Below, piece after piece: positions 17,040 through 42,178 of a stretch of DNA of 64,000 nucleotides. Numbering within the stretch: position 1 is the first letter of the stretch; every line of letters begins with the position of its first letter. This stretch comes from Roseimaritima ulvae (GTDB taxonomy: Bacteria > Planctomycetota > Planctomycetia > Pirellulales > Pirellulaceae): positions 6,987,404 to 7,051,403 of the forward strand of contig NZ_CP042914.1 in the NCBI RefSeq assembly GCF_008065135.1. The letters run 5' to 3'. A program made the position numbers and the translations under genes. The notes below the pieces were generated by a model. That model was not told the origin of the DNA. It saw nothing but the letters and a program-made list of their open reading frames with translations, and did not search any database.

Positions 17040-17250
17040 TAACTTAGTAGCATTGAAGAGAGAGCAGACGGCACTTCACCCTCCCCCTGGGAGGGTCGAG
17101 CCTTAGCGAGGGGAGGGTTTCTCGGCTGCCGACAATAGTTCTGACGACCTGCAAGTCCAACGCCCCCTCCCCGCTCGTCCCTCGCGACCCTCCCAGAGGG
17201 GCGGGTGTAATGCTATTAAGTCAGCCGTCTCCTGCGGCTACCGTTAAAAC
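17040..17250. repeat. Family E palindromic element inserted in a family C terminus
   Basis: ACTTAGTAGCATT (about 17041) and AATGCTATTAAGT (17209-17221) bracket an element with its own inverted ends, CACCCTCCCCCTGGGAGGGT and ACCCTCCCAGAGGGGCGGGTG. The core reads CGGCTGCCGACAATAGTTCT and on. To the right, TCTCCTGCGGCTACCGTTAA is a slightly diverged family C terminal repeat. So E lies inside the right end of the fourth array unit. A second copy, in the opposite orientation, is at 41930-42178. Confidence 0.85.
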
Positions 17251-36165: not shown

Positions 36166-36227
36166 GCCGTAGTCTACGTCGAATACCGGCCTAGGGTTCT
36201 GTAAGTCAATAACTACAGAAGGTGTTG

Positions 36228-36891
36228 CTCCCCTCTCCCTTAAGCAAGCCCATTGTGGCGGAGGAGTTTCAAATCGACGTATCCGTCCCCCTCGCGTTCT
36301 TCTTCGATTTCCCGCAGCTTGCTTGGGGGAGAGGGGCTGGGGGTGAGGGGGCTGGATCTAGGCCTACGAGCATTCGTTAATCGCGGCTTCAATGCGGCGA
36401 ATCACGCTACGGCTATCACGCAGAATGTCATAGCCAGGTATGCGCAGCACCTTGTACCCGAGTCCGCCCAGGTATTCATCCCTCTTTTGATCGTAAACGC
36501 GACCTTCCGGGGTGAAATGCTCGTCACCATCGACTTCCACAACCAGCTTCAACTCGACGCAACAAAAATCCACTGTGTAAGGCAGAATCGGATATTCGCG
36601 GCGAAATTTTTTGTGACCGCACTGACGATTCCTGAGCAATTGCCAGAGAGCTTCCGCAAATTCGTTAGCGCGATGGCGTTGCTCTCTTGCAAAGGCGGTC
36701 GCGTCAGGCGTTTTTCGGACGCGACGTGTTCGCTTGGGCTGGCCGCTGGTCATGCGTATCCTGTCGCCCCCTCACCCCCAGCCCCTCTCCCCCGAAACAA
36801 GCCTTTGCAACAATGTCGATCGAATTAGAAGATCAAACGGTTGGATTGATATCCAACCCATCTTTGACGAGCTTGTTTCGGGGGAGAGGGG
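36228..36891. mobile_element. Nested palindromic element carrying a DUF559 nuclease gene
   Basis: Outer left hairpin: 36228-36249 (CCCCTCTCCCTTAAGCAAGC) with 36317-36337 (GCTTGCTTGGGGGAGAGGGG). Inner arms: 36325-36351 (GGGGCTGGGGGTGAGGGGG) with 36767-36793 (CCCCCTCACCCCCAGCCCC), exact complements over about 27 bases. Outer right hairpin: 36782-36802 (CTCTCCCCCGAAACAAGC) with 36871-36891 (GCTTGTTTCGGGGGAGAG). The only gene inside is the DUF559 ORF 36364-36753. The layout is symmetrical around that gene. No target-site duplication is evident to me. The call as mobile element is inference from the symmetry and from a gene-free relative at 33649. Confidence 0.65.
36364..36753 (-). CDS. DUF559-domain endonuclease-like protein
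   Basis: Protein of 129 residues. A basic N-terminus (MTSGQPKRTRRVRKTP) precedes a PD-(D/E)XK-type nuclease core: LWQLLRNRQCGHKKFRREYP, then YTVDFCCVELKLVVEVDGDE with D62 and E73/D75 as likely catalytic residues, and YDQKRDEYLGGLGYKVLRIP with the usual conserved Arg and Lys region. DUF559 proteins relate to Vsr-type repair endonucleases, but no biochemical role is established for the stand-alone form. It sits alone inside inverted G-rich arms, unrelated to the polysaccharide operon on one side and the toroid operon on the other. Confidence 0.85.
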   Translation of the reverse strand: MTSGQPKRTRRVRKTPDATAFAREQRHRANEFAEALWQLLRNRQCGHKKFRREYPILPYTVDFCCVELKLVVEVDGDEHFTPEGRVYDQKRDEYLGGLGYKVLRIPGYDILRDSRSVIRRIEAAINECS

Positions 36892-36925
36892 AGCCAGATT
36901 TTCCTTGATAATACGCCTCACATCC

Positions 36926-37858
36926 CTACTTCCGCCGATACCGTTGCTCCACAACAACAAAGTCATAGCCGCTGCCGGAGGCCTGGGATTCGAACACCGT
37001 CTTGGCGATCTCCGTCACGCTGGAATGGCCCTTCTCCTTGGCGTACTCCAGCTCGTAGTGGGCCAGCTTGTTTTCCAAATCTTGTGGGATGAACTGAATC
37101 CGCATTCGGTTGTTGCCCAGCGGCACGCCGGCTTTTTGCAGAAGCTGCTGGTCCCAGCGGGCAAAGTTGACGCTGGGGTCGACCCAGGAGAAGTACAACC
37201 GCTTGGCCTTTTCATGCTCGCTGCTGTAGCGTTGTTGCCGGATCCCGCCACTCAGGTTCGAAGCGATATCGACGCCCTGAATGCCGCCCCCGACGGCCCC
37301 TAGTTCGATCCCATAGTGATCCAATTGTTTGGCGTAGCCGCCGACGTCCTTGGCCACAAAGTTCAACCGCCAGCGTTCGAATCGGGGGATGATGTCTTCG
37401 CCTTCGCCTTCGGGGCCCGGCGGCCGACTGTCGCCCATCCCCGTGCCGGCCGTGCTGGCCGGAGCGTTGGTGTTCATTGTGTCCAGCGAGGCGGCCACGC
37501 TGCTGACCGCATCGGTGACCGCTTCCAAGGTGTCTTCCAGTGTCGGTTCGGTCAGCTCTTCGACCTCCTCGGCTCCGGGCGGTTCAAAATCGCGTTCAAA
37601 GCCTTCCGCGTTCTCACCGCGGCCGGCCGCGTTTTCGACGATCGGCGGAAAGGGCTTGGCGGAGAATTTTAAATTTCGCGTCAGCCAGATCAAAAACAGC
37701 ATCAGCACAAAGATACCGATAAACAGCGCCAACGCCATTAACCAGGAGCTGACCGTGTCGAACTTGGACGTCCGCAGGTTGGGTCCCTCGGTGGGCTTCA
37801 GCGGCTTGACGGGTTCCTCTTCGGCGACCGCCAGGACTTCGATGTCAGAACTGCTCAT
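36926..37858 (-). CDS. Single-pass membrane protein of unknown function
   Basis: Protein of 310 residues, start ATG 37858 one base after the upstream stop. The N-terminal cytoplasmic part is acidic (MSSSDIEVLAVAEEEPVKPL). A single membrane helix at about 39-62 (WLMALALFIGIFVLMLFLIW) precedes a Pro/Glu/Ala-rich periplasmic stalk (GAEEVEELTEPTLEDTLEAV, STAGTGMGDSRPPGPEGEGE). A folded C-terminal domain spans about 155-310 (RWRLNFVAKDVGGYAKQLDH, KGHSSVTEIAKTVFESQASG). The layout recalls TonB/TolA-like linkers, but I see no homology to them. Coupled to the toroid protein upstream, so it probably acts with it. Confidence 0.6.
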   Translation of the reverse strand: MSSSDIEVLAVAEEEPVKPLKPTEGPNLRTSKFDTVSSWLMALALFIGIFVLMLFLIWLTRNLKFSAKPFPPIVENAAGRGENAEGFERDFEPPGAEEVEELTEPTLEDTLEAVTDAVSSVAASLDTMNTNAPASTAGTGMGDSRPPGPEGEGEDIIPRFERWRLNFVAKDVGGYAKQLDHYGIELGAVGGGIQGVDIASNLSGGIRQQRYSSEHEKAKRLYFSWVDPSVNFARWDQQLLQKAGVPLGNNRMRIQFIPQDLENKLAHYELEYAKEKGHSSVTEIAKTVFESQASGSGYDFVVVEQRYRRK

Positions 37859-41929: not shown

Positions 41930-42178
41930 CATCGTTTACCCCGCAGCCGCAGGAGCCGCCTGACTTAGTAGCATTGCACCCTCCCTCTGGGAGGGTCGCG
42001 AGGAACGAGCGGGGAGGGTGCGTTGGACTTGCAGGTCGTCAGAACCATTGTCGGCAGCCGAAAAACCCTCCCCTCGCTGACGCTCGACCCTCCCAGGGGG
42101 AGGGTGAAGTGAGGCCGCACGGGCAATTTAATGCCACTAAGTAAGGCGTCTCCTCCGGCTACGGGTTAAACGAGCGCA
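41930..42178. repeat. Minimal family C ends enclosing an inverted family E element
   Basis: The left end ATCGTTTACCCCGCAGCCGC and right end CGGCTACGGGTTAAACGAG are family C terminal repeats with almost no interior. Between them lie CTTAGTAGCATT and AATGCCACTAAGT, then the E ends CACCCTCCCTCTGGGAGGGT and ACCCTCCCAGGGGGAGGGTG. The E core is the reverse complement of the copy at 17040-17250 (here GACTTGCAGGTCGTCAGAAC, there ACGACCTGCAAGTC). Confidence 0.85.

Follow-up and report, generated by a model that had tools for sequence, protein, structure and literature searches.

A DUF559 nuclease gene between mirrored triplex-type repeats in Roseimaritima ulvae, and the association of its family with such repeats across bacteria

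Why should a small nuclease gene lie between two nested sets of inverted repeats that mirror each other on either side of it? The question arose from a preliminary description of a 64,000-nucleotide stretch of the Roseimaritima ulvae genome (the whole stretch analysed, here called the window), which placed a DUF559 gene between inverted arms and two mirrored hairpins. This architecture was confirmed, as the inner arms (36325-36352 and 36766-36793, 28 nt) are 100% complementary, while the left hairpin (36230-36336) has a 20-nt stem that is 90% paired and the right one (36782-36891) a 21-nt stem that is 100% paired. Folded as single-stranded DNA, the two hairpins gave z = -3.87 and -8.46, with equally good structures in 0 of 200 shuffles, and two copies of the arms' 23-mer are present in the window, against a mean of 0.00 in 100 shuffles. 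The gene had also been called the only open reading frame (ORF) between the arms; it is the sole recognised gene there, but mechanical overlapping ORFs exist, for example 36253-36828 on the plus strand.

Each side of the gene has the layout of a BoxC/PIT-like motif, which reads, toward the gene, a C-arm, then a long loop bearing an extra stem, the G-arm GGGGGAGAGGGG, the 3-nt linker CTG and a third, G-rich strand GGGGTGAGGGGG. On both sides the third strand mirrors the G-arm, T or A standing opposite A, which gives 12 of 12 possible purine-motif triads; in sequence, the ends have the capacity for an intrastrand DNA triplex. When the 25 nt that follow the left G-arm were shuffled, 12 triads were reached in 2 of 2000 trials, because this stretch is so G-rich. 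A third layer of weaker symmetry lies outside both hairpins and, since the symmetry continues outward, nearly the whole intergenic stretch (about 36167-36926) is one element. An Rfam search of the element returned no match over the gathering score, and weak matches of the stems to microRNA families were taken as chance. The parts are as follows.

36167..36926, unstranded: whole element, approximate ends, filling the intergenic region from the ABC2_membrane gene start (36165) to the next gene's stop (36926)
36173..36228, unstranded: left outer layer, class II type, with weak inverted symmetry to 36892-36926
36229..36239, plus: left C-arm TCCCCTCTCCC, from hairpin and triad analysis
36240..36324, plus: left long loop, closed by the extra stem AAGCAAGC/GCTTGCTT; homologous loops occur in gene-less copies
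36325..36336, plus: left G-arm GGGGGAGAGGGG, from hairpin and triad analysis
36337..36339, plus: left linker CTG, from triad analysis
36340..36351, plus: left third strand GGGGTGAGGGGG, 12/12 mirror triads, ending 12 nt from the stop codon
36364..36753, minus: DUF559 nuclease gene, 129 aa, with the conserved D62, E73, D75, H79, D88 and R104 present
36767..36778, minus: right third strand, GGGGTGAGGGGG on the minus strand, from triad analysis
36779..36781, minus: right linker, from triad analysis
36782..36793, minus: right G-arm, from hairpin and triad analysis
36794..36879, minus: right long loop, closed by the extra stem CGAAACAAGC/GCTTGTTTCG, from hairpin analysis and folding
36880..36891, minus: right C-arm, from hairpin and triad analysis
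36892..36926, unstranded: right outer layer, class II type, from weak inverted symmetry and alignment to gene-less copies

The product of the ORF at 36364-36753 (minus strand) matched DUF559 (PF04480) over residues 18-125 at 5.9e-27, with 94.1 bits against a cut-off of 20.6, and apart from this the profile search matched it just to MTES_1575, more weakly. In its AlphaFold model (pLDDT 89.5) a nuclease fold is preceded by a short N-terminal tail, and the closest structural neighbours were NGO0050 of gonococcus (PDB 3hrl; Z 15.2), the EDxHD homing endonuclease I-Bth0305I (Z 13.3) and Vsr (Z 11.1), with sequence matches to NGO0050 (3e-34) and I-Bth0305I (3r3p; 1e-5). As modelled, DUF559 is a single-domain nuclease of the Vsr/EDxHD fold. 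To our knowledge, neither I-Bth0305I nor Vsr has any tie to repeats, and we know of no strand-transfer activity for a single PD-(D/E)XK domain. The E, D, H, D set conserved in DUF559 family alignments appears to resemble that for which the EDxHD family is named (PMC3943268). EDxHD homing enzymes have an extended DNA-binding region (PMC3943268), which is absent from the model of the 129-residue window protein; unlike I-Bth0305I, the latter has no extra DNA-binding domain and no intron or intein. NGO0050 and E. coli YcjD, a predicted PD-(D/E)XK nuclease related to Vsr (PMC1189080), belong to the same DUF559 family.

A search of the 8.2-Mb genome with the 23-mer of the window arms, allowing up to 3 mismatches, revealed 38 places and none in the reversed control. 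These comprise 16 inverted pairs with a spacing of 113-118, the window pair with a spacing of 442, and 4 single motifs, two of which were looked at (L033 and L034 were left out). The window pair alone holds a gene. Among the gene-less pairs listed, the loops are homologous and the middle measures roughly 90 bp; alignment of the window sides to 8 gene-less copies gave 72.7-81.7% identity over 136-195 columns (scores 60.5-95.5), the maximum score being 20 in 200 shuffles of the window left part against one copy. Because 16 gene-less doublets with homologous ends occur in the same genome, the arms are part of a repeated element. To this extent the selfish element proposed in the preliminary description found support, although the third strand, the likeness to known repeats and the fact that most copies are gene-less had escaped it.

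The motif that the two ends resemble was described as the BoxC repeat of E. coli and later as the PIT element and the intrastrand triplex motif TM (Holder et al. 2015, PMC4666352); BoxC is also listed as a known stem-loop family (PMC2267715). Common to these repeats and the window element are the C-rich arm, the G-rich arm, the 3-nt linker and the third G-run, as well as an intergenic, multi-copy distribution, sometimes as inverted pairs of two types. The window hairpins, whose loops of about 85 nt compare with 1-6 nt in the ITxF definition of TM (PMC4666352), are BoxC-like and not strict TM. According to Holder et al., the motif is present in more than 260 genomes, including E. coli K-12, Neisseria and cyanobacteria, and is linked to genomic instability, for which a replication-based explanation without an enzyme is given; transposase or integrase remnants were, in their account, never found nearby (PMC4666352). 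As a single strand TM forms a stable triplex in vitro; in duplex TM DNA a triplex signal is absent, and in vivo footprinting gave no support for a stable triplex (PMC4666352). The main text of that paper contains no words beginning with DUF or nuclease, and it describes the repeats without an enzyme, whereas the window element carries a nuclease gene. In the literature searched, with subscription papers mostly outside it, no link between DUF559 and triplex-type repeats was found.

A second comparison is with the REP/REPIN and RAYT system, in which few enzyme genes accompany many short palindromic repeats, the repeats flank the enzyme gene, and gene-less doublets occur. All of these features recur in the window system, where the enzyme gene is likewise flanked by palindromic repeats of its genome. 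RAYT, however, is an HUH/Y1 enzyme; the window protein, with its DUF559 match, weaker MTES_1575 match and Vsr-type fold, does not qualify as an HUH/Y1 transposase but is of the PD-(D/E)XK type, and the window ends add a third strand, so the system works like REP/RAYT and is not a member of it. No RAYT-type fold stood among the VIA-align structural matches listed, which excludes nothing.

The arrangement is general among DUF559 genes. In 297 genomes searched, a mirrored repeat (score at least 16) flanks 63 of 75 DUF559 loci against 14 of 638 displaced windows. Seventy of these loci, all full-length matches (fragments, several contig-end matches and one in a long frame were left out), came from a phylum draw of 294 genomes, and 5, the window gene among them, from the genus. 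In a second set, the best 80 of at least 575 relatives less L172 (dropped for its short flank), which are mostly from Pseudomonadota with some from Chloroflexi, Nitrospiria, Planctomycetia and others, mirrored arms were present at 56 of 79 named loci against 9 of 1091 displaced windows. The preliminary description had held that arms equally common around other genes would speak against it; this check did not refute it, for mirrored arms are strongly enriched at DUF559 genes over displaced windows and also over gene boundaries of neighbouring ORFs, with counts for the latter comparison of 63/75 vs 9/124 in the genome-draw set and 64/79 vs 5/214 at the named loci. Scores below 16 were obtained at 12/75 and 23/79 DUF559 genes. 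A stricter three-block pattern was seen on both sides at 45/75 loci vs 2/361 controls; on at least one side it was seen at 61/75 vs 73/361, so that, unlike the mirrored pair, it is not rare in controls. Perfect third-strand triads favoured the gene side, with 66 there, 15 outside and 0 in shuffled sequence among 124 hairpins of the genome-draw set, and 55, 6 and 0, respectively, among 122 hairpins of the named loci. Many other DUF559 flanks, unlike the window copy, have short hairpin loops, and E. coli ycjD has a BoxC-type repeat downstream only, its upstream flank being without the motif. Inside an hpa catabolic gene cluster on a plasmid of Deinococcus sp. NW-56 there is a DUF559 gene, flanked by mirrored hairpins, that runs on the opposite strand, which may hint at mobility. 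Three records filed as plasmids (NZ_CP141089, NZ_CP119142 and NZ_CP119140) are of chromosome size (4.9 and 2.2 Mb).

The association extends to whole genomes. When the short-loop triplex pattern was counted in the 294 genomes and those with at least 10 matches were termed triplex-rich, a stand-alone DUF559 gene was present in 27 of 33 triplex-rich genomes and in 16 of 261 others (p = 1.7e-21), or, collapsed to families, in 12/14 vs 7/78 (p = 1e-8). One genome, G093, was removed from the triplex-rich set, as 15 matches in its reversed control stood beside its 18 matches, and the window's own genome was counted as triplex-poor because its loops are long. Taken together, these results give good support to an association between DUF559 and triplex-type repeats.

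Within the window's genome, a second stand-alone DUF559 gene (729107-729418) lies between copies of another triplex-type repeat, GGAGGGTCGCGAGGAACGAGCGGGGAGG, which occurs at 49 places, its own two flanks included, against 0 in the reversed control. One genome therefore holds two DUF559 genes, each with its own flanking repeat family, which is cognate matching. Two copies of the second family happen to lie inside the window, at 17166-17193 (minus) and 41990-42017 (plus). A sister species (G001) carries three DUF559 elements in tandem; their arms have CCCTCT in place of the CCCTCA of the window arms. Of the dispersed copies listed for this species, all but a handful share the T, and those of the window's genome mostly have A. 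Short tandem repeats, about 18 nt and similar to GGAGCGTCGACTGATGGT, are also present in the flanks of these three elements. Window-type repeats numbered 38, 126 and 162 in three genomes of the genus with DUF559 matches, including one (G002) in which the gene adjoining a window-type repeat is a partial match; the fourth congener, the one genome of the group in which no DUF559 match was found and whose assembly is 82% complete, had 0.

We hypothesize that DUF559 is the cognate enzyme of triplex-type repeats, in a partnership like that of RAYT and REP with an unrelated enzyme, and that the window holds the gene-carrying copy; we put the probability of this reading at roughly 0.6. That the protein acts on the repeats is the best explanation suggested by the patterns in the DNA. 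An element end would become single-stranded, for example on the lagging-strand template, and fold; DUF559 would recognise the hairpin or triplex and nick beside it; and host replication and repair would then copy, move or excise the segment, with the protein maintaining gene-less doublets and single repeats in trans. Binding, nicking, mobilisation and this route of copying are what we infer from the arrangement. The broader notion that BoxC, PIT and triplex repeats form one mobile-DNA superfamily, whose folded hairpin or triplex ends are recognised by a single-domain Vsr-like DUF559 nuclease, is in our judgement evenly balanced. If true, it would define a new class of repeat and nuclease, parallel but unrelated to REP/RAYT, and give a natural role to intrastrand DNA triplex. 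As the DUF559 pairing recurs across bacteria, the family may be the missing enzyme partner of the long-known orphan BoxC/triplex repeats; a nuclease family widespread under the label "unknown function" would gain one, as candidate reader of unusual DNA structure, and with a candidate enzyme also in E. coli K-12 (ycjD) the origin of BoxC/PIT/triplex repeats would be directly accessible.

A homing-type process, in which the nuclease cuts gene-less hairpin sites and recombination copies the gene in, so that it moves between alleles without transposition, overlaps with this explanation in that the enzyme still acts on the repeats; we consider it possible but doubtful. In its favour, I-Bth0305I, a homing endonuclease, is among the closest relatives with a solved structure and, counting for the main reading as well, a Xanthomonas locus (L193), whose flanks were matched in 35 of 35 genomes, has the gene present or absent at an orthologous site. 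Among 18 aligned sites (L304 was left out), 10 carry the gene between two hairpin-type ends, 7 have one hairpin and 1 neither, so 7 of 8 gene-less sites keep a single hairpin, which is of the same type, in some cases imperfect, and without a third strand. At the gene-carrying sites, L308 has an altered left end, and 1- or 8-nt gaps interrupt the gene span in L303, L305 and L310. The flank tree shows at least 5 changes in the gene/hairpin state, and the element tree conflicts with it: element data reject L309+L310 (AU p = 0.0044) while keeping L308 with its flank relatives (p = 0.096), and flank data reject L308+L310 (p = 1e-9) and L309+L311 (p = 0.001). The conflict could, however, come from ordinary recombination, and the groups were chosen after seeing the trees. 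The Xanthomonas pattern is compatible with repeated losses that left a hairpin behind, with re-entry at hairpins, or with recombination, and the gene-less sites may be deletion products. Against homing are the gene-less relatives at many unrelated places in the window's genome and the absence of the extra DNA-binding domain of EDxHD homing enzymes. Xanthomonas genomes with the gene had a median of 30 repeats (25 genomes) and those without it 8.5 (8 genomes; p = 3e-4), a difference that agreed in 3 of 5 independent pairs, not significantly, once phylogeny was respected; 33 of the 35 genomes were counted (G310 and G321 were ambiguous and left out), and the gene state of unaligned ones was read from the match table.

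Alternatively, DUF559 is a passenger riding between two copies of repeats that owe their spread to another enzyme, to slippage during replication or to recombination. Most repeats are indeed without a gene, six of the 33 triplex-rich genomes have no strong DUF559 match, and Holder et al. explain the instability by replication without an enzyme (PMC4666352). Moreover, between rhaA and rhaD of E. coli, a BoxC doublet present in 1 of 7 compared sequences (L343) and absent in the other six (L347-L352) replaces 17 bp, and its third strands point outward, opposite to DUF559 gene elements; other length variants at this site were accounted for by BIME/REP arrays. Nevertheless, no further gene would fit into the window element, each of the two DUF559 genes of one genome has its own repeat family, the co-occurrence persists at family level, and third strands lie toward the gene far oftener than away from it, all of which make the passenger reading unlikely. 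Among the sites compared, no insertion of a gene-carrying copy and no target duplication were found. The gene downstream of the window element was found in 41 of 41 family genomes, and an ABC2 homologue lay in the fetched flanks (up to 1.5 kb) of 0 of 9 relatives examined for an empty window site. E. coli ycjD was dropped as an empty-site case: strains without it carry the eefRABCD operon there, and ycjD is reported to occur in place of eefRABCD (PMC12817139). A further hint of mobility comes from Legionella anisa (L223, L245 and L252-L264), which has one full-length DUF559 element with long loops and a 148-bp terminal inverted repeat, 95% identical. The related copies, at 73-86% identity, are mostly fragments; three lie at contig ends, which suggests more copies than were assembled.

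Quite improbable, in our estimate, is that DUF559 performs very-short-patch-type repair and that the repeats are incidental or merely aid the spread of the gene. The modelled resemblance to Vsr (Z 11.1), a similarity of fold only, would accord with it, as would Caulobacter VsrA (CCNA_02930), which has a DUF559 domain and is needed for the SOS response when a cytosine methyltransferase is missing (PMC12907096), but mismatch repair predicts neither mirrored triplex-type flanks nor a tie to the genome-wide number of repeats; the two roles could coexist in different DUF559 members. Finally, that the arms act as RNA hairpins, terminators or protective ends, insulating a small toxic nuclease gene is very hard to credit: the third strands do lie 12-13 nt from both ORF ends and the window hairpins fold strongly, but PIT elements had no promoter or terminator activity in earlier work cited in PMC4666352, and the dispersed gene-less doublets with the same ends would be left unexplained.

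Two further observations concern the repeats of the window's genome. A near-palindrome of the GTGAAGTGTATTAATGACGGATTCACTTCAC type, mostly 31 nt long, occurs at 58 places genome-wide (3 in the reversed control) and borders triplex-type doublets in five loci read (among L336-L341); one part is similar to the outer layer of class II elements, and it looks as though the elements lay within the palindrome or next to it. In addition, loci L127, L337 and L338 show a third type of related repeat as well as doublets that mix two types, reminiscent of the pairs of type A and type B reported for E. coli.
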